IMG/VR virus record: IMGVR_UViG_3300044568_003733
Span: 1-57,851 of that record
Reading direction: 5' to 3' (one strand)
Length of the DNA: 57,851 nt
Origin: a virus
Part shown: in pieces, positions 1 through 16,044 of the stretch
Position numbering within the stretch: the stretch's first letter is position 1
Layout of the letters: every line of letters begins with the position of its first letter
Made by a program: the position numbers and the translations under genes
Notes under the pieces: model-generated
Database searches by the model: none
Told to the model about the DNA's origin: nothing
What the model saw: only the letters and a program-made list of their open reading frames with translations

Positions 1-3000
1 CCATGTTATGGCATCCGTACCTCAACAGATGCCATAACATGGACCACCCGCACCTCAAACTTTGGAAATACAATTATACGCTCAGTAGCCTATGGTAACA
101 GCCTTTGGGTAGCAGTTGGCTATGCAGGACAACTCCGTACCTCAACAGATGGCACAACTTGGACCACCCAAACCTCCAACTTTGGAAATACACATATAAA
201 CTCAATAGCCTACGGCAACAACCTTTGGGTAGCAGGTGGCTATGTAGGACAACTTCGTACCGCTGCTTCCTTATATCCAAACCTATCAACAGTAGCATCT
301 TCAACAGGAACAAATACAAGAGTATCTACTGATAGAATATCATGGACTACTATTAGTATTTTAAATCCCGTTGCTTATATAGATACCGACGTAAAATCAA
401 GCGGCATAGCAACAGCAGAACGATATAAAGCAATATCAAATATAAATGGAACTCTTCTTTATTCTGATAGAGAAACAGATCAATATAATCAATATAGAAA
501 TTTATATCAAGAAGTTGGAATTGCTTGGACCACCCAAACCTCCAACTTTGGTAATACACGGATACAGTCAGTATCTTACGGAAACAACCTATGGGTAGCA
601 GGCGGTTTATATGGTGTCCTCCGCACCTCAACCGATGCCATAACCTGGACTGCCCGTACATCCAACTTTGATAGTAATCACTGGATCCGCTCAGTAGCCT
701 ACGGAAACAACTTATGGGTAGCAGGTGCCTATAACGGCCAACTCCGCACCTCAACAGACGGCACAACATGGACCACCCGTACTTCCAACTTTGGTAATAC
801 ACAGATACGCTCAATAGCCTACGGTAACAACCTATGGGTAGCAGGCGGCTATACAGGACAAATCCGCACATCAACAGATGCCATAACCTGGACTACCCAA
901 ACCTCTAACTTTTTTACTCCCAATGAACCAAGAAATATAAACTCAGTAGCCTACGGAAACAACCTATGGGTAGCAGGCGGTGTATATGGTGTCATCAGAA
1001 CCTCAACAGATACTATAACATGGACCACCCAAACTTCAAACTTTGGAAGTACAGATATATTCTCAGTAGCCTACGGCAACAGCCTTTGGGTAGCAGGTGG
1101 GGCTACAGCCCAACTACGCACTTCAACCGATGCCGTAACTTGGACCACCAGTACTGGTGCTTCAAGTATAAACTCAGTAGCCTACGGCAACAACTTATGG
1201 GTAGCAGGTGGTGGTTCAGGCACCTTACGCACATCAACGGATGCTATAACTTGGACTACCCGTACTTCTAACTTTGGTTCTTCACCTATAAACTCAATAT
1301 ACTACGGCAACAATCTATGGGTAGCAGGTTCATATGGAGGCCAGATCCGCACCTCAACCGATGCTATAACTTGGACCACCCGTACCTCTAACTTTGGCAA
1401 CTCAACTATACTGTCAGTAGCCTACGGCAACAACTTATGGGTAGCAGGTGGGGGTGCAGGCCAGATCCGCACCTCAACAGATGCAATAACGTGGACTACC
1501 CGTACCTCAAACTTTGGAAGTACAGGTATATTCTCAGTAAGACACGGCAACAACCTGTGGGTAGCAGGCGGGGATGGAGGCCAACTCCGCACCTCAACAG
1601 ATGCAATAACTTGGACCACCCGCACCTCAAACTTTGGAGGTACACTGATACGCTCAATAGTTTATGACAACAGTATTTGGGTAGCAGGCGCAGATTCAGG
1701 CCAACTCCGCACATCAACGGATGCAATAACTTGGACCACCCGTACATCTAACTTTTCTAGCGATCAACCAAGAGTTATACGCCGAATAGCCTACGGTAAT
1801 AGCCTTTGGGTAGCAGTTGGTCTTTCAGGTCTACTCAGAACCTCAACAGATGGCATAACCTGGACTACCCAAACTTCCAACTTTGGAACTAGTACTATAA
1901 ACGGAATAGCCTATGGCAACAACTTGTGGTTAGCAGGGGGATTAACAGGACAACTCCGCACATCAACGGATGCTATAACTTGGACCACCCGTACTTCTAA
2001 CTTTGGTGTTTCACCTATAATTTCAGTAGCCTATGGTAACAACCTTTGGGTAGCAGTCGGCTATACAGCCCAGATCCGCACTTCAACAGATGCCATAACC
2101 TGGACTACCCGTACCTCTAACTTTGGAAATACACATATACACTCAGTAGCCTACGGTAATAGCCTATGGATAGCAGTTGGCGATACTGGCCAACTCCGCA
2201 CCTCAACAAATACACCACTTTATAACAATATAAAATCAATATCTACATTTGGAACTACAACAATTGGATTAATAGCAGATAATAATTTTGTTACTAGTAA
2301 TGATTTAATTTCATATGCCACGCCAAATTTACAATGGACCACCCAAACATCTAACTTTGGAACTTCAGATATACAGTCAGTAGCCTATGGCAACAGCCTT
2401 TGGGTAGCAGCTGGACATACAGGCCAACTACGCACCTCAACAGATGCCATAACCTGGACCACCCAAACCTCTAACTTTGGCAGCACAACTATACGCTCAG
2501 TAGACTACGGCAACAGTCTCTGGGTAGCAGTTGGATCTTCAGGCCAAATCCGCACCTCAACAGATGTCACAACTTGGACCACCCAAACCTCAAACTTTGG
2601 AGATACAACTATATGGTCAGTAGCCTACGGCAACAGCCTCTGGGTAGCAGGTGGCTATAATGGTAATCTCCGCACCTCAACAGACGGCACAACCTGGACC
2701 ACACAAACCTCAAACTTTGGAACTACACAGATACGCTCAGTAGCCTACGGCAACAACCTTTGGATAGCAGTTGGATTTGCAGGACAATTGCGCACCTCAA
2801 CAGATGCAGTCACATGGACTACCCAAACCTCAAACTTTGGAACTGAAATTATATTCTCAGTAGCCTACGGCAACAACCTTTGGGTAGCAGGTGCAAATAA
2901 TGGTAATCTCCGCACCTCAACAGACGGCACAACCTGGACCACCCGCACCTCCAACTTTGGTAGTACAGGTATAGGAGAAGTAGACTACGGCAACAATCTC

Positions 3001-4284
3001 TGGATAGCAAGCGGGCCTGCAGGCCAACTCCGTACCTCAACAGATGCAATAACTTGGACCACCCGCACCTCAAACTTTGGCAGCACAGCTATACGCTCAA
3101 TATCCTACAGCAACAACCTTTGGGTGGCGGGTGGAGATGCAGGCCAAATCCGAATTTCCTACACCCCATCAATACCACCAACCATTACATCAATAAACAC
3201 AAATATATTAGCATCAGATCAAGGAGTAATCTATCCATTTAATACATCAAATTCTACATATACCCCAATTAGAACAGGAATTTTAGGCGGTGTAGAAAAA
3301 GTAAGTTATTCTGATAATACTTATTCAATATATGTAAATGGAAAAACACCATATACATGGATAACACCAGTAAGTAACTTTGGAAATACAAATGTAATGG
3401 CAGTAGGCTATGGAAACAATCTTTGGGTAGTAGTTGGGACTGCAGGAACACTTCGCACTTCAACCGATACTATAACCTGGAACACGCAAACCTCTAACTT
3501 TGGAAGCACACAGATATTGGCAGTAGCCTATGGCAACAGCCTTTGGGTAGCAGGTGGCAATACAGGAACACTCCGTTCCTCAACTGATGCCGTAACTTGG
3601 ACCACTCGTACTTCCAACTTTGGAAACACACTTATATTTTCGATAGCCTATGGCAACAGCCTTTGGGTAGCGGGCGGAGAGTCAGGCCAACTTCGCACCT
3701 CAACAGATACTGTAACCTGGACCACCCGTACTTCTTCTGGCACTATGAACCAAATTATCCGCACAGCATCCTACAATAACAACATTTGGACAGTAGGTGG
3801 GGGTGGAGGACAACTTAATACTTCAACAGACGGCACAACCTGGACTGCCCGTACCTCCAACTTTGGTAATACGGCTATATTCTCAATAGCCTACGGTAAT
3901 AGCCTTTGGGTAGCATCATCTGGTGCAGGAACAGTCCGTTCCTCAACTGATACTATAACCTGGACCACCCGTGATTCCAACTTTGGAGGTGTAGTCTACG
4001 GCAACAATCTTTGGATAGCCTCCACCAATTTAAATAACATACGCACCTCAACAGACGGCACAACCTGGACTACCAGTAACTCAAACTTTGGAAATACAAC
4101 TATACGCCGAATAGCCTACGGTAATAGCCTTTGGGTAGCAGTTGGCTATGCAGGCACAATTCGTACCTCAAGAGTAAATGAAAACCTTGGCATGTATGTA
4201 TCAACTGATGGTGCTACATGGACTACTCAAGCATTGACATTACCAATATCTAATTCTAATTTAACTGATATTGAACTTGCATAA
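1..4284 (+). CDS. Giant Asp-box beta-propeller adhesin (5' end outside window)
   Basis: The frame is open from base 1 to the stop at 4284 (1427 codons), so the gene starts upstream; the internal ATG at 1924 is just a methionine inside a repeat. The protein is built from ~40-residue units of the pattern SVAYGNNLWVAGG-x3-GQLRTSTDAITWTTRTSNFG. The STDG-x-TW part is a BNR/Asp-box-like motif typical of beta-propeller blades. I count 30 full units: 2 before about 270, 14 from about 535 to 2206, 7 from about 2335 to 3160, 7 from about 3375 to the stop. Spacers of about 40-90 residues separate the arrays. Proteins like this occur in phage tails as adhesins or fibres; binding a surface glycan is inference. 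The gene is richer in GC than its neighbours. It precedes the glycan-modification island. Confidence 0.85.
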   Translation, partial: PCYGIRTSTDAITWTTRTSNFGNTIIRSVAYGNSLWVAVGYAGQLRTSTDGTTWTTQTSNFGNTHINSIAYGNNLWVAGGYVGQLRTAASLYPNLSTVASSTGTNTRVSTDRISWTTISILNPVAYIDTDVKSSGIATAERYKAISNINGTLLYSDRETDQYNQYRNLYQEVGIAWTTQTSNFGNTRIQSVSYGNNLWVAGGLYGVLRTSTDAITWTARTSNFDSNHWIRSVAYGNNLWVAGAYNGQLRTSTDGTTWTTRTSNFGNTQIRSIAYGNNLWVAGGYTGQIRTSTDAITWTTQTSNFFTPNEPRNINSVAYGNNLWVAGGVYGVIRTSTDTITWTTQTSNFGSTDIFSVAYGNSLWVAGGATAQLRTSTDAVTWTTSTGASSINSVAYGNNLWVAGGGSGTLRTSTDAITWTTRTSNFGSSPINSIYYGNNLWVAGSYGGQIRTSTDAITWTTRTSNFGNSTILSVAYGNNLWVAGGGAGQIRTSTDAITWTTRTSNFGSTGIFSVRHGNNLWVAGGDGGQLRTSTDAITWTTRTSNFGGTLIRSIVYDNSIWVAGADSGQLRTSTDAITWTTRTSNFSSDQPRVIRRIAYGNSLWVAVGLSGLLRTSTDGITWTTQTSNFGTSTINGIAYGNNLWLAGGLTGQLRTSTDAITWTTRTSNFGVSPIISVAYGNNLWVAVGYTAQIRTSTDAITWTTRTSNFGNTHIHSVAYGNSLWIAVGDTGQLRTSTNTPLYNNIKSISTFGTTTIGLIADNNFVTSNDLISYATPNLQWTTQTSNFGTSDIQSVAYGNSLWVAAGHTGQLRTSTDAITWTTQTSNFGSTTIRSVDYGNSLWVAVGSSGQIRTSTDVTTWTTQTSNFGDTTIWSVAYGNSLWVAGGYNGNLRTSTDGTTWTTQTSNFGTTQIRSVAYGNNLWIAVGFAGQLRTSTDAVTWTTQTSNFGTEIIFSVAYGNNLWVAGANNGNLRTSTDGTTWTTRTSNFGSTGIGEVDYGNNLWIASGPAGQLRTSTDAITWTTRTSNFGSTAIRSISYSNNLWVAGGDAGQIRISYTPSIPPTITSINTNILASDQGVIYPFNTSNSTYTPIRTGILGGVEKVSYSDNTYSIYVNGKTPYTWITPVSNFGNTNVMAVGYGNNLWVVVGTAGTLRTSTDTITWNTQTSNFGSTQILAVAYGNSLWVAGGNTGTLRSSTDAVTWTTRTSNFGNTLIFSIAYGNSLWVAGGESGQLRTSTDTVTWTTRTSSGTMNQIIRTASYNNNIWTVGGGGGQLNTSTDGTTWTARTSNFGNTAIFSIAYGNSLWVASSGAGTVRSSTDTITWTTRDSNFGGVVYGNNLWIASTNLNNIRTSTDGTTWTTSNSNFGNTTIRRIAYGNSLWVAVGYAGTIRTSRVNENLGMYVSTDGATWTTQALTLPISNSNLTDIELA

Positions 4285-4339: not shown

Positions 4340-5164
4340 ATGTTAAATAAAAAACAATTTTACTTTATGGCGGGACTACCAAGATCTGGTAGTACTCTAA
4401 TATCATCTATATTAAATCAAAATCCTGATATTTATTCATCAGCAAATTCACCTATGTGTGGAATGATATTTAATTTAGAACGTAGTATTTTGGCATCAGA
4501 ACAGTACTCTGCATACCCAAAACCTGCAGTAATGCCAAATACAATTATGGGGGTATTAGAAGGATACTACTCTGATACAAATAAACCTATAGTTATTGAT
4601 AAATCAAGAGAATGGTCAATGCCTGAACATTTCGGGGTATTGCAAAGAAATCTTGGATATGAACCAAAAATAATACTACCAGTAAGAGGAATAACAGATA
4701 TCCTTGCATCATTTATAAGTCTAGTTAAAAAGAATCCAAATAAAAATAATTTTATTGATTCTGAAATACAAACAAGACAGGAATTTAATTTTTACCGTCC
4801 AGCAGATGATATTAGGTGTGATAGCTTAATGAGGCCAAAAGGTATTATTGATAACTGCTTATACGGTATAGCATTTGCGATGCATCCAGATAATAGAAAG
4901 TATTTCCATTTTGTAGAATACGATGATTTAATAGAAAATCCAGAAGAAGAAATTAACAAAATTTATGATTTTTACGGTATTGAAAGATTTACCCATGACT
5001 ATTCAAATATAGCAAACAATATTAAAGAAGATGATAATGTCTATGGACTTATAGGACAACATGATGTAAGATCTTCTATATCCCGTCGGAATATAAATAA
5101 ACAAGAGTTATTGTCTGAATATGTAATAAATAAATATACTGGTCTAGAATTTTGGAGAAAATAA
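4340..5164 (+). CDS. PAPS-dependent sulfotransferase-like protein
   Basis: This 274-residue protein has the two nucleotide-binding signatures of the sulfotransferase superfamily. One is an N-terminal 5'-phosphosulfate loop, GLPRSGST (residues 12-19). The other is a 3'-phosphate-binding segment, PVRGITDILASF (about 114-125), with Arg116 and Ser124 in the expected places. A late YDDLIENPEEEI segment is also typical. The family moves sulfate from PAPS to a hydroxyl of a glycan or tyrosine. The acceptor is unknown; the next genes encode glycosyltransferases, so a glycan is the likeliest target (inference). It is the first gene of an operon-like run behind its own promoter, and its stop overlaps the next start by one base (TAATG). 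An APS-kinase-like gene lies at 56272. Confidence 0.85.
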   Translation: MLNKKQFYFMAGLPRSGSTLISSILNQNPDIYSSANSPMCGMIFNLERSILASEQYSAYPKPAVMPNTIMGVLEGYYSDTNKPIVIDKSREWSMPEHFGVLQRNLGYEPKIILPVRGITDILASFISLVKKNPNKNNFIDSEIQTRQEFNFYRPADDIRCDSLMRPKGIIDNCLYGIAFAMHPDNRKYFHFVEYDDLIENPEEEINKIYDFYGIERFTHDYSNIANNIKEDDNVYGLIGQHDVRSSISRRNINKQELLSEYVINKYTGLEFWRK

Positions 5165-5835
5165 TGAAGCCACATGTTAATGTTTTAATCGCCACCCCTG
5201 GTAGAAATATGGAAGCAGAATATGTAAAAAGTTTAATACAAACTATTTCATATCTAAATCAAGTAGGTATTTCATATATGTTCTTAAATGAATATTCATC
5301 TATGGTTAGTACTGCTAGAGAAGCAACAACAATGGGAGATCAATACCTAGATCCTTTTAATAATAGTCCTGCTCGTGGACAAGTAACATATGATAAAATT
5401 TTTTGGATTGATTCTGATATTGGATGGGAAATAACAGACTTTATGAAAATATATGAGTCTGATAAAAATATTGTTTCTGGTTTATATTTTAATGAAAAAA
5501 TGGTACCAATGTTTTCTGTAGCAGTAGAAGATGCGGCAACAGAAATTGACAGAATTTTAAAAAGTAATAAGGAAGAAGAAGTTTTTGCTGCTGGATTTGG
5601 TTTTATAGCAATGAAGCAAGGCGTATTTGAAAATATGAAAAGACCATGGTTTGAGTCAGTATTTCAAAAAATGACTTCAGAAGATGAGGAAAAAGAAATA
5701 TTTATTCCATACGGAGAAGATTTTTCCTGGTGCAAAAAAGCACAGCAAGCAGGATTTAAGGTGTACTTAGATCCTACAGTAAGTTTGTCGCATTATAAAA
5801 AAGTAAAGGTAAGGTTAGATAATTATGGCAAATAA
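5164..5835 (+). CDS. GT-A fold glycosyltransferase, paralogue 1
   Basis: The 223-residue protein starts MKPHVNVLIATPGRN. It carries a DxD-type motif in WIDSDIGW and a late acidic motif in PYGEDFSWCKKA, as in GT-A glycosyltransferases (GT2-like), which transfer a sugar from a nucleotide sugar using a divalent metal. I chose the ATG at 5164, which overlaps the previous stop (TAATG) with GGAG at 5154-5157, over a TTG at 5152. It is clearly paralogous to the next protein: both share the ATPG start, the IDSDI-x-W core, the AGFGF segment and the GED-x-SWC segment. The sugar and acceptor cannot be read from sequence. Confidence 0.8.
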   Translation: MKPHVNVLIATPGRNMEAEYVKSLIQTISYLNQVGISYMFLNEYSSMVSTAREATTMGDQYLDPFNNSPARGQVTYDKIFWIDSDIGWEITDFMKIYESDKNIVSGLYFNEKMVPMFSVAVEDAATEIDRILKSNKEEEVFAAGFGFIAMKQGVFENMKRPWFESVFQKMTSEDEEKEIFIPYGEDFSWCKKAQQAGFKVYLDPTVSLSHYKKVKVRLDNYGK

Positions 5836-6529
5836 GCCACATTTTAATGTAGTAATAGCTACTCCAGGAAACGGATTCACTCCTGGCTATATGAGAAGTA
5901 TTCTTAAAACAACGTATATATTAAATCAAGAAAACCTATCTTGGAACTTTTTAAATCAAGGTGGATCTTTAGTTGCAATGGCCCGTGAATCTACAATTGG
6001 TGGATGGGATACAAATAATATAAAGATGACAGAGCCATGTAGTGGTGAATGGACTTATGACAAAATTATTTGGATTGATTCAGATATTGAGTGGGAACCA
6101 TCAGATTTTTTTGCATTATATAATTCTGAAAAAGATATTATTTCTGGATGCTATTTAATGGAAGATCGACACGTTCCTATTTATAATCAGCCTAGAGGTG
6201 GAATGATGCCAGAACAAATGATTCTTGATAATAAGGAGCCATTTAAAGTTGCTGGGGCTGGATTTGGGTTCCTAGCCGTTAAACAAGGGGTATTTGAAAA
6301 AATGCCAAGACCTTGGTTTGGCCCAGTAGCAATACCCAATACAGATGAAAACAAAGACACAAATCCTGAGTTTATACTTATTGGTGAAGATCTTTCTTGG
6401 TGCACAAAAGCCATTAATTCTGGTTTTGAAATTTGGGCGGATCCCAAAATTAGAGTAACTCATCAAAAAACATTTAAACTTCATTGGATGGATGTTTTAC
6501 AAAAAAATTATCCACAGGAAAATAAATAA
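5825..6529 (+). CDS. GT-A fold glycosyltransferase, paralogue 2
   Basis: This 234-residue protein aligns along its whole length with the gene before it: NVVIATPGNG at the start, IIWIDSDIEW as the DxD site, VAGAGFGFLAVKQGVFE in the middle, LIGEDLSWCTKA near the end. It looks like a tandem duplication that has diverged, perhaps to a different sugar or linkage (inference). It overlaps the upstream gene by 11 bases and touches the next in an ATAATGA junction, so all are probably translated together. Confidence 0.8.
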   Translation: MANKPHFNVVIATPGNGFTPGYMRSILKTTYILNQENLSWNFLNQGGSLVAMARESTIGGWDTNNIKMTEPCSGEWTYDKIIWIDSDIEWEPSDFFALYNSEKDIISGCYLMEDRHVPIYNQPRGGMMPEQMILDNKEPFKVAGAGFGFLAVKQGVFEKMPRPWFGPVAIPNTDENKDTNPEFILIGEDLSWCTKAINSGFEIWADPKIRVTHQKTFKLHWMDVLQKNYPQENK

Positions 6530-7251
6530 TGAAATTACAATTTGAAGCATTTGATAAAGAAACAGAACTTTTGTTTGAAAGTCCAAAGCCAGCAGTTCAG
6601 TCTCTTCCACAATGGTATAAAGATATGCCAACAAGAATGGATGAAGAAAAATTAGACGGTTTATCAAAAGATGGGGTTGCAGTTAGTAACTTAACATTAA
6701 AGGGATGCTCTCCTTTTCTTGACGCTTTAAGTACAGGATACATATTTGAATTACCATTTGATATGGAGTTTAGAAAAAATGATAAAGGAATGATTAATGT
6801 TCGTTGGGCAACAAATATTAATCTTATAGGACAACACGGACCAGATCAAGCACCAGGATTACCAGGACCATTTGGTGGATCCCCAAGTCTTCTTAAGTGG
6901 AGACCAGGATGGAGAGTTATTACTCCAAAAGGCTACAGTTGTTTGTTTACCCATCCTATGAATAGGCACGATCTTCCATTTAGAACATTTTCTGGTGTTG
7001 TGGATACCGATATGTATAAGCTTGGTGTTGAGTTTCCATTTCAGTTATTGGATTCTTCAATTGATAAAGATGTTTTTATTCTTGAGAAGGGAACCCCCAT
7101 TTGTCAGGTTATTCCATTTAAGAGAGAAGATTGGAAGAGCGATGTTGTAAAATTTGATGAAGAAGAAAATCGTAAAAATGGTTTTTTATTAAAATCAAAA
7201 ATAGTTCGTTCGTACAAACAACAATTTTGGCAGAAAAAAACTTATAATTAG
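6529..7251 (+). CDS. DUF6065-like conserved phage protein
   Basis: A 240-residue protein of unknown function. It contains the order of blocks that I associate with the DUF6065 family: an early Cys-Pro segment (GCSPFLDAL), a TP-x-GYS-x-LFTHPMNRHDLPF block, GVVDTDMY, and a late KGTPICQVIPFKRE segment. The overall look is a compact beta-rich fold, and no catalytic site is known to me. Its position between glycosyltransferases, in an operon with one-base overlaps, suggests a part in glycan modification, but this is only context. The family assignment is from memory of motifs and is moderate. Confidence 0.5.
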   Translation: MKLQFEAFDKETELLFESPKPAVQSLPQWYKDMPTRMDEEKLDGLSKDGVAVSNLTLKGCSPFLDALSTGYIFELPFDMEFRKNDKGMINVRWATNINLIGQHGPDQAPGLPGPFGGSPSLLKWRPGWRVITPKGYSCLFTHPMNRHDLPFRTFSGVVDTDMYKLGVEFPFQLLDSSIDKDVFILEKGTPICQVIPFKREDWKSDVVKFDEEENRKNGFLLKSKIVRSYKQQFWQKKTYN

Positions 7252-7259
7252 GAGATAGC

Positions 7260-8234
7260 ATGGATTGGTTACAGCAGGTTCCAAAAAACAATATTGGGGT
7301 GGTAGAAGAATCTTTGCCTCCAATGGGCGGTACAGAAATATTAAAATCTGGACTATATAAATATACTAATATAGCGCAGCATGAAGATGTTCACCTTTTG
7401 CTATCTAATCCATATTTTAAAAATATAAAATATACAAAAAAGAATTTGCTATGGCAACATTTGGCTCATAGCGATGAATCATTAAAATTAGGATACACAG
7501 ATCCCTCATTTATGAATGCTATAAATTCATTTGTATACATCTCTCACTGGCAACATGAAAAGTATCGTTGGATATTTAAAATCCCACTTGAAAATGCATA
7601 TGTAATCAAGAATGCAATAGAACCAATTGAATTTAAGCCAAAGACTAAAGATGGCAAGATAAAATTAATTTATACCTCTGCCCCTTTTCGTGGACTAGAT
7701 ATGCTTTTGCCAGCATTTGAAATGCTAAATAGAGAAGATGTAGAGCTTGATATTTATTCATCAGCAAAAATGTATGGAACTGGATATGAAGCTCATACAA
7801 ACGGGGTGTACGAAGAACACTTTGAAATAGCTCGCAATATGAAGAATGTTAACTATATGGGATATGCTACAAATGATGTAATTAAAAAGGCTTTACAAGA
7901 AGCCCATATTTTTGCATATCCAAGTACATTTGAAGAGACTTGTTGTTTGGCAATGGTTGAAGCTGGAGCTGCAGGATGCCGCATGGTTACAACTAACCTT
8001 GGTGCACTATATGAAACGGGATCAGAATATGCAAGACTTATGCCAATGCAAGCGGTACCAGAAACATTTATTCCAGCATATGCAAAAATACTAAATGAAG
8101 AAATTGACAATTATTGGTCTATAGAAACACAAAGTAAATTACAAAAGCAATCAGATTTTTATAATGAAAATTACTCTTGGGATTTAAGGTCTAAAGAGTG
8201 GAATAGATTGTTTGAAAAAATTAGCTCCACTTAG
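7260..8234 (+). CDS. GT-B (GT4-like) glycosyltransferase
   Basis: The 324-residue protein has the C-terminal half of a GT4-type enzyme: a mid-protein nucleotide-sugar domain start (KIKLIYTSAPFRGLDMLLPA) and the donor-binding FAYPSTFEETCCLAMVEAGA segment with the E-x7-E arrangement. The N-terminal acceptor domain includes MGGTEI near residue 22, a common GT4 glycine-rich loop. A good AGGAG (7250-7254) precedes the ATG. The gene ends convergently with the minus-strand gene, with 14 bases of overlap at the 3' ends. Donor and acceptor are unknown. Confidence 0.8.
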   Translation: MDWLQQVPKNNIGVVEESLPPMGGTEILKSGLYKYTNIAQHEDVHLLLSNPYFKNIKYTKKNLLWQHLAHSDESLKLGYTDPSFMNAINSFVYISHWQHEKYRWIFKIPLENAYVIKNAIEPIEFKPKTKDGKIKLIYTSAPFRGLDMLLPAFEMLNREDVELDIYSSAKMYGTGYEAHTNGVYEEHFEIARNMKNVNYMGYATNDVIKKALQEAHIFAYPSTFEETCCLAMVEAGAAGCRMVTTNLGALYETGSEYARLMPMQAVPETFIPAYAKILNEEIDNYWSIETQSKLQKQSDFYNENYSWDLRSKEWNRLFEKISST

Positions 8235-8877
8235 CATTATATTTTACTTGATCAGAAGCAACAATGCTATCAAAAGATTCGGTAGAGCTAGAATCAATTA
8301 AATAATCTCCCCATAGGTATTCTGAACGAGAATGTCCCAATACAGGTTCTGCCCTACGATAAAAATCATTATCACCAAACCATATTTGGAATTGCTCATC
8401 AGCACGTAGGCTAGAGGATGCTGAAACTAATAGCATAGCCCCATCAGAGATATTTATAACCTCTGATTCACCCTTAGAAAATTCATCGTATGCTTCTTTA
8501 ATCACGAATGGATCAAATTCAAAAACGCCATTTGTTAAAATAACAGCATCTGCTCCGTTTGCTACGGCATACTCAAAGCCAGTATTCCAATAACGATAAA
8601 TATTTATATCATTAAAATCTTCTAGATGGACTACGCCATCATGCTCTGTATAACCAGCAACTTTATTTACAAAAATAACTCTACTAGAAAAATTTGGTCC
8701 TGTTTGACCAGCATATGGATGAGAAACATTTTCTGTCTCTAACTCTTTTGTTTCTTGATTAAATATCTTTTTTTCGTAGGTTTCTGGGGCAATATATCCG
8801 CCAGACAATTTATTAATAAATTCAGTAAGATCTACAGTATTATTTAGCACTGGAACGACTATCCATGTATTTAACAT
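8221..8877 (-). CDS. Lone minus-strand GT2-like glycosyltransferase
   Basis: This is the only minus-strand gene I can support in the window. The 218-residue protein begins MLNTWIVVPVLNNTVDLTEF, a typical GT-A/GT2 first strand and helix, contains WNTGFEYAVANGADAVILTN where the DxD strand would be, and ends with WFGDNDFYRRA, the late acid-containing motif of the family. The usual DxD reads LTNG, as in some GT2 members and in divergent or inactive ones. It has its own ribosome site (AAGGAGA on the minus strand, 8881-8887) and extended -10 promoter. Inverted orientation inside a plus-strand operon suggests insertion as a separately regulated module. Confidence 0.7.
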   Translation of the reverse strand: MLNTWIVVPVLNNTVDLTEFINKLSGGYIAPETYEKKIFNQETKELETENVSHPYAGQTGPNFSSRVIFVNKVAGYTEHDGVVHLEDFNDINIYRYWNTGFEYAVANGADAVILTNGVFEFDPFVIKEAYDEFSKGESEVINISDGAMLLVSASSSLRADEQFQIWFGDNDFYRRAEPVLGHSRSEYLWGDYLIDSSSTESFDSIVASDQVKYNAKWS

Positions 8878-8910
8878 ATTTCTCCTTATATTATCTTATG
8901 GTATTCAAAT

Positions 8911-8919
8911 ATTATATCA
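8911..8919 (-). promoter_or_regulatory. Extended -10 promoter for the minus-strand gene
   Basis: On the minus strand the bases read TGATATAAT, a full extended -10 element. It lies about 34 nt before the minus-strand ATG at 8877, leaving a short leader with an AAGGAGA ribosome site. No convincing -35 is seen, as usual for extended -10 promoters. Confidence 0.55.
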
Positions 8920-8978
8920 TAGAGGATTTACTAAATAAACTTCACTAGCTCCGACCTTTTTTATCTGTCGGCTGGACC

Positions 8979-9008
8979 TTTACAAAACCCCACCTAATAG
9001 TATATACT
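8979..9008 (+). promoter_or_regulatory. Promoter, predicted leaderless start for GH130-like gene
   Basis: TTTACA (8979-8984), an 18 nt spacer and TATACT (9003-9008) lie 6 nt before the ATG at 9015. There is no ribosome site, so the mRNA would begin at or next to the start codon. It is divergent from the minus-strand promoter 60 bp away. Confidence 0.5.
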
Positions 9009-9014
9009 TGAGAT

Positions 9015-10025
9015 ATGAATCTTGTACAAAAAGCGGTTACAAATGGCGGTAAATTAGTCCCTCTAGTTATTTCTAAAGGATTAACAAGTGGAACGGGATT
9101 AATGAACCCCTCCGTATTTATAGATGATGACGGGGACATATTAGTTAATCTTCGTCATGTGAATTACACCCTATATCACTCTGAAAATAGTCAAATGTTT
9201 CCATCTATATGGGGACCCCTATCTTATTTGCATCCAGAAAAAGATCAAAATCTAAGAACAACTAATTATATATGTAGGCTGGATAAAGATCTTGTTATGA
9301 CAGATTATTCTGTTATTGATACAAGTCTTTTAGATGTCCCGCCACTCTGGGAATTTGTTGGTCTTGAAGATGCCAGACTTGTTCAATGGGACGGCATATA
9401 CTATTGTATTGGCGTAAGAAGAGATACAACAAAAAATGGCGTAGGTAGAATGGAATTATCTAAAATAGAACTAGACAAAACAAATTGGTCTGCAAAAGAA
9501 GTGTCACGTATTAGGATACCTGCACCTGGAAATGATAGTTCATATTGTGAAAAAAATTGGTATCCAATACTAGATAAACCCTATCACTTTGTTAAATGGA
9601 CTTCTCCAGCAGAAATTGTAAGAACTTATCCAGATCTTCCCGCCAGATGTGATCAAGTGTCTCTTACTGAGAATATAAAAGTTCCTGCTGATCAAAGAGG
9701 CGGAAGCCAACTAATTCGCTGGAATAGTCTATATCTATCTATAACCCATGAAGTAAACCTATTTAATAATTACCTTAGTCAAAAAGATGGTGTATACCGA
9801 CATAGACTATGTGTCTGGGATGACGATTTAAATTTAATTGGAATTTCTCCAGAACCATTTTCATTTTTAGATGCACGTATAGAATTTGCTGCAGGAGCAG
9901 CAGTATACAATAATGATTTGCTGATATCTTTTGGTCTGCAAGATAATTGTGCGTTTGTTATTAAAGTTCCTGAGATAGTAGTAGAAGACATGATAGGGGA
10001 GGCATTACTAAATGAAATCAATTGA
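9015..10025 (+). CDS. GH130-like five-bladed propeller carbohydrate enzyme
   Basis: The 336-residue protein has signatures that I associate with GH130 (beta-mannoside phosphorylases and hydrolases): MNPSVFIDDDGDILVNLRH near the start, GLEDARLVQWDGIYYC in the middle (the EDAR box), EKNWYPI, a RGGSQLIRWNSLYLS block and AAGAAVYNNDLLISFG near the end. Members cleave or phosphorolyse beta-mannosides. Here the substrate is unknown, and a phage might use it to trim host or virion glycans (inference). It starts leaderless behind its own promoter and overlaps the next gene by 14 bases. Confidence 0.7.
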   Translation: MNLVQKAVTNGGKLVPLVISKGLTSGTGLMNPSVFIDDDGDILVNLRHVNYTLYHSENSQMFPSIWGPLSYLHPEKDQNLRTTNYICRLDKDLVMTDYSVIDTSLLDVPPLWEFVGLEDARLVQWDGIYYCIGVRRDTTKNGVGRMELSKIELDKTNWSAKEVSRIRIPAPGNDSSYCEKNWYPILDKPYHFVKWTSPAEIVRTYPDLPARCDQVSLTENIKVPADQRGGSQLIRWNSLYLSITHEVNLFNNYLSQKDGVYRHRLCVWDDDLNLIGISPEPFSFLDARIEFAAGAAVYNNDLLISFGLQDNCAFVIKVPEIVVEDMIGEALLNEIN

Positions 10026-10584
10026 AAAATTAATTGAAGATGCATCTCATGATATGTTTAATCCAATATTAAATTTTGAGATTGCTAATAAATATGAGGA
10101 ATTAAATCAAACAGCATCTGCTGTATCTTTTTATTTAAGAGCGGCAGAATATGGATATAATACTAATCCAGAAATTGTTTATACATCATTATTAAAAATG
10201 GCACATTGTTTTAATGATCAGGCTGGAAGAGAAAATAGTGTAACTCATGCTTTGCTTCAAGCTATTCAATATATGCCTAATAGACCTGAAGGATATTTTT
10301 TGCTTTCCCGTTTTTATGAGAGAGATCAAAAGTGGCAACAATGCTACACTTTCGCCGAAATAGGGTTGTTATATTCAAAAACAATTAATCAATTGCCAGC
10401 ATCAGTAGATTATCCAGGAGAGTATGGCCTACTATTTGAAAAAGCTGTAAGTGCATGGTGGATCGGCAAAAAGGAAGAATCTTTAAATATATTTTTAGAA
10501 TTATTAAAACAAGACATGTTAGATATTTATCGTAATGCAATAATATATAATTTGAAAAGAATTGATCCAAATGCTGCTATTTGA
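10012..10584 (+). CDS. TPR-like helical repeat protein
   Basis: A 190-residue, mostly helical protein. It has repeated pairs of helices with TPR-like small and aromatic spacing, for example ANKYEELNQTASAVSFYLRA, PEGYFLLSRFYERDQKWQQC and SAWWIGKKEESLNIFLELL. TPR regions often sit next to or inside glycosyltransferases in phage and bacterial glycan loci and act as protein-binding scaffolds. No catalytic motif is seen. It overlaps its neighbours on both sides, so it is translationally coupled to the GH130-like gene and the methyltransferase. Confidence 0.6.
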   Translation: MKSIEKLIEDASHDMFNPILNFEIANKYEELNQTASAVSFYLRAAEYGYNTNPEIVYTSLLKMAHCFNDQAGRENSVTHALLQAIQYMPNRPEGYFLLSRFYERDQKWQQCYTFAEIGLLYSKTINQLPASVDYPGEYGLLFEKAVSAWWIGKKEESLNIFLELLKQDMLDIYRNAIIYNLKRIDPNAAI

Positions 10585-11242
10585 TATTGGCGCAAATAGA
10601 GGAGATGCAGTAGTTGCAGGATTGAATAAAGGATTTGATAAGATTATTGCTTTAGAGCCCGCCCCCAAAATGTTTTATATGCTTTACAATAATTTTAAAA
10701 ACGACAAAAGAGTTATTCCACTTAAGTATGCTGTATCTGATTCTAATGACGAAAAAATTGAATTCTATGAATGTGTAGAAGATGGTCTTTCTACAATTGA
10801 AAAATCTTGGCTAACTGGAGAAGGTGCTATTTATAATGGCAAACAATTTAAAACTATTAAAGCTATTACTTGTACGATAGATTATCTTGTTGAAAAATAC
10901 GGCATTCCAGACTTAGTTAAAATAGATGTAGAGGGAGCAGAATCTCAAGTATTTGGAGGAATGACTTGCAAGCCAAAACAGTTATGTTTTGAATGGAGTC
11001 TATTTACCCTAGATCAGCATCTAGAGCAATTAAAGCGTCTTAGAGATGTTAATGGATACACAGAATTTGCGTTACAATATATTACAGATCATTTAGTAGA
11101 ACCTACAGTTTACCAATCAATGTCTATGATAGACTCTCTTCCTAAGTGGATTGAGGATACCAAAGATGAGTGGGAAAACGGCGGGTGGCTAGAATATGGG
11201 CTCAGACAAACTACAGACGTGGGAATGATTTGGGTAAAATGA
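10571..11242 (+). CDS. FkbM family methyltransferase
   Basis: A 223-residue SAM-dependent methyltransferase of the FkbM type (Methyltransf_21). The glycine-rich SAM loop is FDIGANRGD at the very start, followed by ALEPAP (acidic end of strand 2), a YAVSDSNDEKIEFYE block and PDLVKIDVEGAE, the family hallmark. FkbM enzymes O-methylate sugars and other small hydroxylated groups. I prefer the ATG at 10571 over a TTG at 10562; both lie inside the preceding gene. It probably methylates a glycan made by the neighbouring genes (inference). Confidence 0.8.
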   Translation: MLLFDIGANRGDAVVAGLNKGFDKIIALEPAPKMFYMLYNNFKNDKRVIPLKYAVSDSNDEKIEFYECVEDGLSTIEKSWLTGEGAIYNGKQFKTIKAITCTIDYLVEKYGIPDLVKIDVEGAESQVFGGMTCKPKQLCFEWSLFTLDQHLEQLKRLRDVNGYTEFALQYITDHLVEPTVYQSMSMIDSLPKWIEDTKDEWENGGWLEYGLRQTTDVGMIWVK

Positions 11243-11286
11243 TATATTTAAACACTAAGATTAATCTAAAGGATGGCTTAATATTT

Positions 11287-11304
11287 AGCCTTTTGCAAAA
11301 GGCT
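11287..11304. promoter_or_regulatory. 18 bp perfect palindrome, possible operator
   Basis: AGCCTTTTGCAAAAGGCT is perfectly self-complementary and sits across the -35 region of the promoter at 11319-11327. No T-run follows, so a terminator is unlikely. A GGCTTA direct repeat flanks it (11275-11280 and 11301-11306). It could be a protein-binding operator or a leader hairpin. Confidence 0.4.
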
Positions 11305-11318
11305 TATAGTACCGAGAA

Positions 11319-11327
11319 TGATATAAT
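11319..11327 (+). promoter_or_regulatory. Extended -10 promoter
   Basis: TGATATAAT, with the hexamer ending 6 nt before an ATG at 11334 that opens a 12-codon reading frame. A TSS near 11334 would make this a leaderless transcript. Confidence 0.5.
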
Positions 11328-11333
11328 ATAAAA

Positions 11334-11369
11334 ATGAGTAATACTACTGATAAAAAAGGAGATAATTAA
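11334..11369 (+). CDS. Possible 11-residue leader peptide
   Basis: The frame reads MSNTTDKKGDN and stops one base before the ATG at 11371. Its last codons contain the AAAGGAG ribosome site (11355-11361) of the next gene. If the upstream promoter makes a leaderless mRNA, this mini-ORF would be translated first and could couple or tune translation of the next gene. Coding is plausible but unproven at this length. Confidence 0.3.
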   Translation: MSNTTDKKGDN

Positions 11370-11370
11370 A

Positions 11371-11754
11371 ATGGCACACTTTGCAGAAATCGACGAGAAC
11401 AATATTGTTACTCGTGTATTAGTAGTAGATAACGCAAATGAAGACAATGGGCAAGAATTTCTTGCAGAGACTTTAGGTCTAGGCGGAACTTGGATTAAAA
11501 CTTCATACAACACTTCAGGTGGCGTACACATAAATGGCGGAACACCATTAAGAAAAAATTATGCTGGAATTGGATATTCATATGATGCAGAAAGAGATGC
11601 GTTTATCCCGCCGAAACCTTATAATTCATGGTTATTAAATGACGAAACATGTCTTTGGAGCGCCCCAACACCAATGCCTGTAGAAGAAGGCAAAATTTTT
11701 AAATGGGTTGAAGAAGATTTAAACTGGCAAGAAGTAGAAATGGCACAGGAGTAA
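11371..11754 (+). CDS. Conserved phage protein of unknown function (127 aa)
   Basis: I recognise the family: a small protein beginning MAHFAEIDENNIVTRVLVVD, with an NYAGIGYSYD segment, then FIPPKPYNSWLLNDETCLW. It is very common in marine and freshwater tailed phages, usually near tail-fibre genes, and has no established function. A structural or fibre-associated role is likely from context. It has an AAAGGAG ribosome site 9 nt before the start and a possible leader peptide upstream. A 67 nt gap to the next gene holds nothing recognisable. Confidence 0.75.
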   Translation: MAHFAEIDENNIVTRVLVVDNANEDNGQEFLAETLGLGGTWIKTSYNTSGGVHINGGTPLRKNYAGIGYSYDAERDAFIPPKPYNSWLLNDETCLWSAPTPMPVEEGKIFKWVEEDLNWQEVEMAQE

Positions 11755-11821
11755 TTTAAATTAATATAGGCGGATCTAGAGTAGTAATAATTAGATATCA
11801 AATATAGAAGTTAGGAATTAA

Positions 11822-12895
11822 ATGATATTTCATGTGGTAAGCCTACCTCACACTCAAACAACAGATGAGTATTCTAGTTGTGCCTTTACATCTAAAATAA
11901 TTGGTTTTTGTAAAATGATGAAGTCATTGGGACACACAATATATTTATATGCTGGTGAAGAAAATAAAGCTACATGTGATGAATTAATTACATGTATTAC
12001 TGAAGAGCAAAGAAAAGAAGCAGTAGGAGATAATCATTACACCACCGCCTCATTTGACACTAATTTACCACATTGGCAAATATTTAATAATAATGTAATT
12101 AATGAAATTAAAAAACGGGCAGGACAAAAGGACTTCCTCTGTTTTATAGGCGGAACATCTCATAAGCCAATTGCAGATGCTCTACCAGAATTTATGTCAG
12201 TAGAATTTGGTATAGGTTATGGAGCCACATTTGCTAAATATAGAGTTTGGGAATCATATGCTTGGATGCATTCAAATTATACTGGGTATAAAGATCCAAC
12301 AACAGTAGATGGATTATTTTACGATGAAGTAATTCCAGGATACTTTGATCCTACCGAATTTGCATTGCAAGAAGATAAAGAAGATTATTATTTATATCTG
12401 GGCAGACTAATAGATCGTAAAGGATATAATATAGCAGTAGAAGTTTGTAAGAAATTAAATAAAAGATTAATTATTGCTGGTCCTGGAACCCCGCCAGAAT
12501 ACGGTGAATATGTTGGAGTAATTGGTCCAGAAGAAAGAAAGAAATTAATAGGTGGGGCAATTGCATTATTTGCACCTACTCTTTATTTAGAACCATTTGG
12601 TAATATAGTTCCAGAAGCACATCTTTGCGGCACCCCAACAATAACTACAGACTGGGGAGCATTTACAGAAACAAATATTAATGGAGTAACAGGATATAGA
12701 TGTAGATCATTTCAAGAGTTTTGTGATGCTACAGAAAAGGTAAAATATTTAAATCCAGCACAAATATGGCGGAGGGCAGTGGACACTTACTCCCTTGAAG
12801 TAACCGCTCAAAAATATGATAAATACTTTAATAAATTACTTACTTTATGGGATGATGGCTGGTATAGTTATAAACCTGAAAGTGGTATAATTTAA
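11822..12895 (+). CDS. GT-B (GT4-like) glycosyltransferase
   Basis: A 357-residue protein. The C-terminal half is a clear GT4 donor domain: [28 protein letters not shown], and [20 protein letters not shown] with the E-x7-E catalytic pair, then [14 protein letters not shown]. The N-terminal half is a less conserved acceptor domain. It is the last enzyme of the glycan island, directly before the collagen-like fibre gene, which makes fibre glycosylation attractive (inference). The sugar is unknown. Confidence 0.85.
12883..12891 (+). promoter_or_regulatory. Extended -10 promoter, predicted leaderless start for fibre gene
   Basis: TGGTATAAT, with the hexamer ending 6 nt before the ATG at 12898. 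It overlaps the end of the preceding glycosyltransferase gene. No ribosome site is present, so a leaderless transcript is predicted. Confidence 0.55.
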
Positions 12896-12897
12896 AA

Positions 12898-14367
12898 ATG
12901 ACCACAGCTAAAGGCTTTCGCTATCCAGTATATTCAGACACTCCAGATGTCCCAAGAGATTTGGAATATTTAGCTGAAGATGTCGATACTTATTTAACAG
13001 CACATCCAGGACCAACTGGCCCATCAGGCCCATCAGGCCCATCAGGTCCATCAGGTCCATCAGGTCCATCAGGTGTTTCAGGCCCATCAGGTCCGTCAGG
13101 TCCGTCAGGTGCAACAGGTGCTACTGGTCCCACAGGACCAACTGGCGCAACTGGTCCGTCAGGTCCATCAGGAGCAACTGGAGCACAAGGAGCGGGAGTA
13201 ACAATACTTGGTAGCTATGCTACATTAGGCGCATTACAAACAGCACATCCTACAGGAGATCTTGGAGATGGATATGTTGTTGGTCCAGACTTATATGTTT
13301 GGGATGGAGATGAATGGTTAAATGTTGGTCCATTACAAGGTCCATCAGGTCCGTCAGGTCCATCAGGAGCATCAGGTCCATCAGGCCCAAGCGGCCCAAG
13401 TGGACCAAGCGGATCATCAGGGCCAACAGGGCCTGCACCAGCATTTTCAATAACATCAGATACTCCGCCATCTTCTCCAGTTACAGGACAAGCATGGTTT
13501 AATTCTACAAATGGAACACAATATACATATTATGATTCATATTGGGTAGAGGTTGGACAATCTTTAATTGGACCAACAGGTGCAACAGGACCTAGCGGAC
13601 CATCAGGACCATCAGGTGCTTCAGGTCCATCAGGACCAACTGGTGCAAATAGCACAGTATCAGGTCCATCAGGACCAAGTGGACCATCAGGCCCATCAGG
13701 CCCAAGTGGACCATCAGGCCCAAGTGGACCAAGTGGATCATCAGGATATACTCCAACTGGCTGGACAGCAATAATTACAAATCAAGCTGTAACATCTGGA
13801 ACTACGGTCACACTATCTGGACTTGGAACGTATAATAGACTTAAAATAATTTGGCATAGACAAGAAAGTAGTGGTGGCACACTTGCTTCTCCATCAGATA
13901 ATATAGATCATTTTTTAGTAGGATCTGTGAATGGTGGAGGATCAGGAAATAGTAAATTTGGATATAGCCAAGTAGAATTTATTGGATATTCATTAAGTTC
14001 ATTTTATGGAACTGGCGGAACTGGCGGAACTGGTTTGTCTGGATATGAATCAGCTGCGTATGGAGCAAATAATTCAGACCCTGGATTATTTATAGTTCCT
14101 TCAGGTCCTTCAGGAGGATCTATAGAAATTTTTGACAACTTATCTTCTACTGCAAAATCATACAATTTAATAGCAAATGGCCGACAAAGTATATCTAGCA
14201 CAGCATATCCAAAAATTAAATTTGTAACTGGAATGTGGGATAAGGCAGATCCTATTAGCTCAATTACTTTTGAATTACTTTATGGAAGCAATGGACAGTT
14301 TGGTAGAGTTATAGGCGGATCCGTTCAATTAGCTACATATTTTACAATACTAGGGAGTACACTATGA
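12898..14367 (+). CDS. Collagen-like tail fibre or adhesin
   Basis: A 489-residue protein with a short N-terminal anchor region (residues 1-40), a Gly-Pro-Ser/Thr collagen-like stretch (about 40-100), a small globular linker ([20 protein letters not shown]), more GPSG triplets (about 142-180), another linker with [15 protein letters not shown], a third collagen run (about 225-284) and a C-terminal beta-rich head of about 200 residues starting [14 protein letters not shown]. Collagen-like triplets trimerise fibre shafts in phage tails. The interrupted plan (shaft, knob, shaft, knob, shaft, head) is typical of receptor-binding fibres. Its many Ser and Thr residues could be glycosylated by the upstream enzymes (inference). 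Confidence 0.85.
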
Positions 14368-14606
14368 TAGATGTAACAGAAATAAATATTTCTACTGGAG
14401 AAGTTACTGAAAGAGAATATACTCAAGAAGAAATAGATAAAAGAATAGAACTTGAGTCTAATCCTCCACAAAAAATTATTGACATAAGATCTCAAGATCA
14501 ATTTTTAGAAAATGAAGAAATTATTGCATTAAAACAATCTGCTATAGATAAATTAAAGGCATTGGGTTTAACAGAAGAAGAAGCTAAAGCATTGGCAGGT
14601 ATATAA
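14364..14606 (+). CDS. Small acidic fibre-associated protein (80 aa)
   Basis: An 80-residue, charged, helical protein ending [17 protein letters not shown]. It starts in an ATGA overlap with the fibre gene and is followed by another collagen-like gene. Small proteins of this size and position often act as fibre assembly partners, but no family assignment is firm. Function unknown. Confidence 0.65.
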
Positions 14607-14607
14607 C

Positions 14608-15156
14608 GTGCCAATAGATTTTCCAAATTCTCCAACTTTAAATGATGTTCACACAGTAGGAAGTAATTCCTGGAAATGGGATGCAACATCTTGGAATCTT
14701 GTAAGAAGTATTGGCCCATCTGGTCCTACTGGAGCAACAGGGCCTACAGGGCCAACTGGACCTAGCGGAGCAACTGGACCATCTGGAGCAACTGGTCCTA
14801 CTGGAGTAACAGGACCAAGCGGTGCGGCATCAGTATATGCTATAAATACTCAAACAGCATCTTATACTGCAGTATATTCAGATTCTTCAGCAATAGTAAG
14901 AATGAATGTTGGATCTTCAAATACATTTAGTATTCCTGTATCAACAAGCCCTACCGACTTTGAAATAGGATCATCAATAACAGTTTGGCAAATGGGTTCT
15001 GGTCAAACAACTATTCAAGCCTCAAATTCTGGAACTACAACAATACAATCAACAGGCGCATCTGCTGCCGCTCCAAAATTAAGAACTCAATATAGTTCAG
15101 CCGTAATAACTAAAGTAGCGGCAAATTTATGGTATGTGGCTGGAGATGTGGTTTGA
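14608..15156 (+). CDS. Short collagen-like tail protein
   Basis: A 182-residue protein with a GTG start. Residues 1-33 form an N-terminal module ([18 protein letters not shown]) like those that attach phage fibres. About 35-72 is a Gly-Pro-Ser/Thr collagen run. The C-terminal 110 residues form a beta-rich domain ([20 protein letters not shown] through to GDVV) that resembles a fibre trimer head. It follows the 80-residue protein by one base and is probably part of the fibre complex. Confidence 0.75.
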
Positions 15157-16044
15157 TTGCGTCATCTAATAGGAATATTTTCTTCTGAAATATCAAAGAG
15201 AACATTTGTAAGTGGCGGAACATTATCTTCTGATTCAACATATTATTATAGAACATTTACTGGTACAGATAATTTAATAATAACTGGACCAAGTATCTCT
15301 GTTGAATATTTAGTAATTGCAGGTGGAGGTAGTGGTGGTTGGGGTGGAGGCGGTGGAGGTGCAGGTGGAGTCAGATCTTCATCAGCAACATTAACTGCTG
15401 GCTTGTATCCTGCAACAGTTGGTGCAGGCGGAGCTTATTATATAACTGGAACAAACCCATCATCATTTAATTCATTTGAGTCTGCAGGCGGAGGAGTAGG
15501 GTCAACAAACAGTTTTGGAGCAGGAGCAAATAATGGAGGTTCAGGCGGCGGAGCAAGTGGTACTGGTGGGGCTTCCATAGCTGCAGGTTTTGGAAATACT
15601 CCAGCAACATCCCCTTCTCAAGGAAATAATGGAGGACCTGGTTCTGTCGGACACGGCGGTGGTGGTGGTGCAGGGGCATCTGGTGGAGCAGCTAGTGGAA
15701 ATTATGGTGGCTCTGGAGGAAATGGAACCAATTCTTATTCATCTTGGGCTTCAGCAACATCTACTGGAGTTAGTGGATATTATGCAGGAGGAGGTGGCGG
15801 TGGAAGCGTTGAAGTTGCTTATCAAGCTACTGGAGGTTTAGGCGGTGGTGGCTCAGGTGGATATATTTATAATCAAGATACTCAGCCATATAACGATTTA
15901 AATTTAGGAGCAACAAATTCTGGATCTGGTGGCGGTGGTGGAGGAAACGGAGTTGTTGGATCGGGATACAATCAGGCATATCCTGGAAACGGCGGTTCTG
16001 GTATAGTTATAGTTAGATACTTAAAATCAGCAGTAGGAGGATAA
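15157..16044 (+). CDS. Glycine-rich tail adhesin
   Basis: A 295-residue protein that begins with a TTG directly after the previous stop; no better start is visible. After a beta-rich N-terminal module it has a long glycine-rich region (about 55-290) with runs such as GGGGGGAGGV and the conserved block LTAGLYPATVGAGG, as in phage glycine-rich tail adhesins whose polyglycine-II helices form receptor-binding tips. It ends IVIVRYLKSA, a typical closing strand. The 3' end overlaps the next ATG by one base. Confidence 0.75.
   Translation: MRHLIGIFSSEISKRTFVSGGTLSSDSTYYYRTFTGTDNLIITGPSISVEYLVIAGGGSGGWGGGGGGAGGVRSSSATLTAGLYPATVGAGGAYYITGTNPSSFNSFESAGGGVGSTNSFGAGANNGGSGGGASGTGGASIAAGFGNTPATSPSQGNNGGPGSVGHGGGGGAGASGGAASGNYGGSGGNGTNSYSSWASATSTGVSGYYAGGGGGGSVEVAYQATGGLGGGGSGGYIYNQDTQPYNDLNLGATNSGSGGGGGGNGVVGSGYNQAYPGNGGSGIVIVRYLKSAVGG

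Follow-up and report, generated by a model that had tools for sequence, protein, structure and literature searches.

Promiscuous add-on domains of phages, such as Ig-like domains, are modules of which one and the same kind occurs on differing virion proteins of many phages, and in the eukaryotic protein DDB1/Rik1 one propeller is inserted relative to the others. DDB1/Rik1 comprises 21 WD40 repeats that form three seven-bladed propellers (PMC3271066). Highly repetitive beta-propellers, which are defined by a median internal blade identity above 60% and count the Asp-box lineage and viruses among their examples, are expected to be variable in blade number, since amplification has 'no counting system' (Pereira and Lupas 2022, PMC9218822). 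Here, we describe a propeller gene that occupies bases 1-4284 of IMG/VR record IMGVR_UViG_3300044568_003733, a linear virus fragment of 57,851 bases that is referred to as the window in its full length. We consider it quite probable that the seven-blade arrays of the encoded protein are complete rings plugged into a degenerate hub propeller, and that the protein is an adhesin. The fold, promiscuous phage add-on domains and repetitive propellers are already known; the surprising part would be the recursive insertion of propellers into propellers.

The rings of the window protein share seven four-stranded blades with Ycf48 and other seven-bladed propellers (PDB 2xbg and 5oj3; the WD40 proteins PRL1 and COPA), with target-normalized TM-scores (TMt) of 0.67-0.76. 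The original prediction had spoken of a Ycf48-like propeller, which is supported for the fold but not for the family: the window protein gave no Pfam match to Ycf48/PSII_BNR at E ≤ 0.01, and its sequence similarity to Ycf48 in the PDB is not significant (E = 0.017). Pfam matches to Kelch_6 and PBSX_XtrA were rejected as composition-type noise, as no single stretch passes alone. Unlike Ycf48-type propellers, the rings described here are viral, highly repetitive and present several times per protein, where they appear to be plugged into other domains. Like the propellers in PMC9218822, they consist of blades that are approximately 70% identical and thus exceed the 60% cut-off (mean blade identity is 68-73% at every spacing in the longest array of the window), but whole arrays come in multiples of seven, contrary to the expectation stated there. 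Neither insertion nor nesting turned up when the text of that article was searched. DDB1/Rik1 resembles the proteins studied here in that its repeat count is a multiple of seven, but it differs by the lack of recursion and of movable rings, and it is unrelated in sequence and function. In contrast to Ig-like add-ons, the rings appear to be inserted within loops of host domains and within each other rather than mainly appended at the ends. The literature searched, the coverage of which is incomplete, yielded no example of whole movable rings residing in several host folds or in one another.

No stop codon interrupts reading frame +1 between base 1 and the one at 4282-4284, just as originally predicted, and 1427 amino acids are encoded. 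A start codon is absent because the contig edge falls inside the gene, and our best guess is that bases 1-4284 represent the 3' portion of a gene for a virion protein of the phage, i.e., the C-terminal part of a giant surface protein. When the protein was cut at its STDxxTW motifs, blades of 40 residues (range 35-44) emerged in arrays of 14 (aa 176-740), 7 (aa 779-1053) and 7 (aa 1120-1390), preceded at the left edge by two complete blades and a half (aa 1-88), and the blade counts given in the original prediction were thereby borne out. Spacers of 87, 38 and 66 residues follow the first three arrays. A hidden Markov model (HMM) of the blade, built in A-B-C-D register and used to scan the arrays, revealed that each complete array starts with a D-only half (model positions 27-40) and ends with an A-B-C-only half (1-25 to 1-29), so that its formula reads D + (ABCD)x(n-1) + ABC. 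With a lone D strand at the start and A-B-C at the end, an array of n gives n blades only if the chain closes as a ring. The half blade that had been said to open each array and to complete the last blade in a velcro closure is thus recognizable by sequence. The edge array is complete with seven blades in L034, a contig that is identical in DNA to window positions 61-300 (relatives are cited by such locus labels). Tandem Repeats Finder reported a period of 120 nucleotides with 72-86% matches; together with the multiples of seven among the arrays of relatives (see below), this indicates that the blade repeats are not due to chance. The protein is divided as follows, all features lying on the plus strand:

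1-264, plus strand: right end of ring a, a half and two complete blades (aa 1-88), assigned from the HMM register and the complete ring in L034; the remainder lies upstream of the contig.
265-525, plus strand: spacer b (aa 89-175), which would supply hub blade 3 as well as hub strands B2/C2-D2; C-D half at blade-HMM 15-34; conserved in orthologs and 81% identical to L019, hub blade 3 alone not significant.
526-2220, plus strand: contiguous 14-blade array (aa 176-740), putatively a pair of seven-bladed rings; only 7 blades fill this slot in the orthologs L019 and L027.
2221-2334, plus strand: spacer c (aa 741-778), which would be hub blade 4; kept in orthologs, alone not significant.
2335-3159, plus strand: ring c, 7 blades (aa 779-1053), from motif cutting and the blade HMM.
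3160-3357, plus strand: spacer d (aa 1054-1119), which would comprise hub blade 5 (alone not significant) and strands A6-B6, the latter at blade-HMM 5-16; AlphaFold2 places strands at aa 1099-1103 and 1106-1110 with low confidence.
3358-4170, plus strand: ring d (aa 1120-1390), whose 7 blades form a closed propeller in the AlphaFold2 model, with Foldseek matches to seven-bladed propellers.
4171-4284, plus strand: C-terminal hub piece with proposed C6 (MYVSTDG), D6, A7 (NLTDIELA) and the stop; C6-D6 at blade-HMM 25-35 with 18 bits; 92% identical to the C-terminus of L019.

The blades had been described as Asp-box blades. This name does not strictly fit the blades of the window protein: they carry S-T-D-x-x-T-W, which is one residue shorter than the canonical motif SxDxGxTW between strands C and D (PMC9218822); the full-length motif is kept in the relatives L045 and L049 (STDNGVTW/STNNGITW). 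The turn in the window protein is Asp-box-like or derived, and non-canonical. A recent duplication of a whole ring within the 14-blade array was sought as a seven-periodicity of blade identity and rejected, identity being flat at all spacings. Positional orthology between blades of the window and those of L019 was likewise rejected, as values on and off the diagonal agree (68 vs. 67%, 62 vs. 63%).

Structure prediction of the last array, which had been proposed as a check, gave a closed seven-bladed ring and no open solenoid. Ring d (aa 1120-1393) was modelled with AlphaFold2 on the basis of a 65-row ring alignment from which the row of Actinomycetia phage DSL-LC01 had been left out. The model contains seven A-B-C triplets plus D strands, with a predicted local distance difference test (pLDDT) mostly between 85 and 98 and a predicted TM-score of 0.75. 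Foldseek matched it to seven-bladed propellers in the PDB, including beta-TrCP, PRL1 (TMt 0.76), COPA and Ycf48 (0.67-0.72). As judged from this model, ring d is a closed seven-bladed ring, and the remaining rings are assigned the same form on the basis of their sequences.

A scan of IMG/VR with the ring alignment retrieved 61 loci and, upon removal of near-copies, 75 proteins. When the count was restricted to arrays carrying both velcro half-blades (66 arrays in 48 proteins), multiples of seven accounted for 57 (55 of 7, one of 14, which is that of the window, and one of 21), corresponding to a binomial p of about 6e-39 under an expectation of 1/7. Strict arrays outside this series have 1, 4, 5 or 9 blades; those of L055 and L068 sit in open reading frames at contig ends, and the 9-blade arrays of L031 and L035 may each comprise an inserted seven-bladed ring together with two blades of the host. 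Looser blade counts also peak at 7, 14, 21, 28 and 35. The same array lengths recur across contigs from different metagenomes (35, 7 and 21 in L045-L048), which argues against an assembly artefact. In the complete genome of phage DSL-LC01, a standalone gene for 290 amino acids encodes exactly seven blades. Raw counts can be resolved in the same manner: 16 in L019 equals 7 plus a degenerate hub segment plus 7, and 28 in L049 equals three inserted rings of seven plus seven host blades.

Several further observations were made among the relatives. Tandem paralogs, in each of which a host domain is combined with one or two seven-bladed rings, occur in L017 and L018 (six ring proteins in a row), and three ring-bearing paralogs each stand in tandem in L012, L014 and L021. 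Relatives are also found in bacterial metagenome-assembled genomes (L073-L089), several of which have seven-blade arrays (L073, L074, L075, L077, L085). In Synechococcus phage B23, a tblastn search detected a propeller stretch on the plus strand of L007 (6001-6744, record positions 214826-215569) where the annotation has two small minus-strand hypothetical genes; it is probably a missed or broken gene. The last ring of the ortholog L038 (aa 553-748) has five blades and may reflect either repeat collapse during assembly or a true five-bladed ring.

What lies between the rings is probably also a propeller. We propose that each 7-blade array folds into a full seven-bladed beta-propeller in which the first D strand pairs with the last A-B-C. 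Because the two ends of such a closed propeller sit side by side, a whole ring can enter the loop of another domain. In the window, this host would be a degenerate seven-bladed hub, of which the spacers and both termini are probably the pieces, as relatives suggest. Ring and host would both survive only if whole rings were inserted, which would give lengths of 7, 14, 21 and so on.

The spacers are read as the dispersed blades of one hub because orthologs gain or lose whole rings at hub loops and because the flanking halves are complementary. L019 encodes an apparently full-length protein of 1736 amino acids with five rings of seven and spacers homologous to those of the window, and its DNA is 82% identical to the window from position 1371 through the downstream gene. 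The first of these five rings is missing from L034, the N-terminal region of which is unbroken at that slot; L035 carries one more ring than L031, the protein of which has 1075 residues and is apparently full-length, and the extra ring is placed right before the final strand. Ring-free hosts are thus found at the same site both in an N-terminal (L034 vs. L019) and in a C-terminal slot (L031 vs. L035), and one and the same slot holds 14 blades in the window vs. 7 in L019. At insertion sites, the blade HMM aligns by its A-B part with the segment preceding the ring and by its C-D part with the segment following it. Such complementary halves were found at three sites in L049 (3-21 and 23-34, 2-21 and 23-39, 6-23 and 23-39), at one in L039 (3-15 and 25-34) and at one in the window (5-16 and 25-35). 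In long arrays, landmarks recur every nine blades (blades 8, 17 and 26 in L049; 27 and 36 in L039), a spacing that would arise if each ring of seven interrupted a blade of the host. On this reading, the blades left over for the host number seven in L049 (1, 9, 10, 18, 19, 27, 28) and also in L039 (20, 28, 29, 37, 38, 39, 40), where the host ring would itself be inserted in the hub. When the rings were excised, hubs of 334 (L019) and 341 (L039) amino acids remained that can be aligned end to end. An hhalign comparison with the ring profile gave a match in the N-terminal half of the joined hub (E value 1.8e-6), a search of the joined sequence against Pfam gave no significant match, and counting of strands suggests seven blades for the hub.

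A number of points weigh against this interpretation. The hhalign match leaves the C-terminal half of the joined hub uncovered. In the window, hub blades 3-5 scored individually are no better than shuffles and blade 6 reaches only 5 bits in its A-B half, and for this reason support for nesting comes mainly from the relatives rather than from the window. The blade-like segment that had been predicted in each spacer is present as halves in spacers b and d, but not as recognizable blades 3-5. The nested arrangement is suggested by sequence comparison. The hub flanks have a pLDDT below 50 in the ring d model, which consequently says nothing firm about the hub pieces, and a model of a longer piece (aa 741-1427, six close orthologs) was discarded at a pLDDT of 38. 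Finally, some arrays break the rule of seven, including the last ring of L038 (5), L052 (5) and L029 (9).

Rings also occur in hosts other than propellers. A host domain that we take for a beta-sandwich by its strand pattern is broken by a ring (HNGTTVDLxxYGELSIGG-ring-ISGSDVRLRATI), and its homologs in L104 and L115 (IMG/VR) are continuous and ring-free; a search for this host in a phage collection found none. In L072, a Pfam Collar match breaks off immediately ahead of the ring, having reached position 42 of the 57 in the profile. Joining of the two Collar halves did not raise the Pfam score, and the split is therefore indicated by the truncated profile match only. Glycine-rich domains are interrupted as well (L070). 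With somewhat less assurance than for the window protein itself, we lean towards the view that phages employ the complete seven-bladed propeller as a mobile module that can be plugged into the loops of virion domains unrelated to one another (propeller hub, beta-sandwich, tail-collar, glycine-rich) and, recursively, into those of further propellers, with as many as three levels of nesting (L039, L049) and with blade counts quantized in sevens while the blades turn over.

Variability across 397 blades is concentrated at positions 10, 12 and 14 and at positions 28, 29 and 31, which fall in the D-A and B-C loops. These loops lie on one face of a propeller. In the window, the ratio of nonsynonymous to synonymous polymorphism (pN/pS) is 1.5 at these six positions and 0.28 elsewhere, the former value being biased upward, to the detriment of our interpretation, because the positions were chosen within the same family. 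Encoded 3' of the propeller gene are glycosyl- and sulfotransferases as well as collagen-like, glycine-rich and laminin-G proteins. A single hypervariable face and neighbours of the fibre type suggest that the rings probably act as a multivalent adhesin for glycans or other receptors on bacterial surfaces, whereby the D-A and B-C loops on one ring face would provide a multivalent grip. It is conceivable, albeit clearly less probable, that rings in the same architecture serve structural or decorative purposes (capsid decoration, stabilization) instead of receptor binding. This would agree with a structural match to an 'outer capsid protein' of Vibrio phage VP2 and with the presence of blade relatives in cyanophage baseplate proteins, but hypervariability of one face with pN/pS above 1 and the co-occurrence of collagen-like and glycine-rich fibre-type genes fit binding better.

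A little less probable still is a linear string of independent seven-bladed propellers separated by small unrelated linker domains, close to the original prediction of a string of at least four propellers. Several seven-bladed rings per protein are indeed evident, the 14 blades of the window follow each other without a spacer as tandem rings would, and it counts against nesting that hub blades 3-5 are not recognizable as blades. The string itself is contradicted by the complementary blade halves flanking the rings, by the gain and loss of whole rings at hub loops between orthologs, by the nine-blade landmarks of L049, which fit seven host blades plus three inserted rings rather than four consecutive rings, and by rings that break a beta-sandwich known in ring-free form. 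Eight-bladed rings that recruit their eighth blade from a degenerate spacer segment, which had been put forward as an alternative, are very unlikely: blade-like halves do exist in the spacers and the best sequence matches in the PDB are the designed eight-bladed propellers Tako8/Ika8, but in spacer c only about 6 residues separate the closing A-B-C from the A strand that follows, which leaves no space for a D strand, standalone homologs close with exactly seven blades, the modelled ring closes at seven without any spacer, and Tako8 superposes poorly on it (root-mean-square deviation mostly 11-12 Å), so that the degenerate segments are better read as hub blades. An open beta-solenoid or unclosed concatemer of blades, with seven a sampling accident, has next to no probability, since the flat blade identity within the 14-blade array is outweighed by the 57 non-redundant arrays in multiples of seven, the closed AlphaFold2 ring and the identical array lengths in L045-L048. 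The best reading of the window protein thus remains that of at least four complete seven-bladed rings in a degenerate hub.

Judged from gene content, the window stems from a tailed phage: genes for portal, prohead protease, capsid, tape measure, minor tail and replication proteins lie further downstream. Positions 4340-12895, directly after the propeller gene, encode a sulfotransferase, several glycosyltransferases and a methyltransferase, by which the phage may alter glycans of its virion or its host. They are followed at 12898-16044 by a Gly_rich_2 protein and collagen-like proteins with GPSGPT-type repeats; in relatives, rings adjoin or sit within collagen-like or Gly_rich_2 proteins. No reverse transcriptase or diversity-generating element was detected among the window proteins scanned, a scan that covered only part of the open reading frames. 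When window positions 13-727 were compared with L034 (8086-8794), DNA identity was 100% over window positions 61-300, remained at 59/60 for a further 60 bases, dropped to 85-95% thereafter and was lost by divergence past approximately base 480, inside the spacer; by sequence, the pattern looks like a mosaic of intragenic recombination.

How repeat number is controlled in repeat proteins is an open question, and the arrays described here keep to multiples of seven. They do so although the blades of orthologs no longer correspond position by position, and selection for ring closure as well as the insertion of whole rings can therefore be studied in natural data, for which ring-free and ring-bearing versions of one host domain offer a natural comparison. 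If it is true that the rings bind host surfaces, they would represent a multivalent recognition scaffold, distributed over many uncultivated phages, in which each blade exposes about six variable positions on one face.

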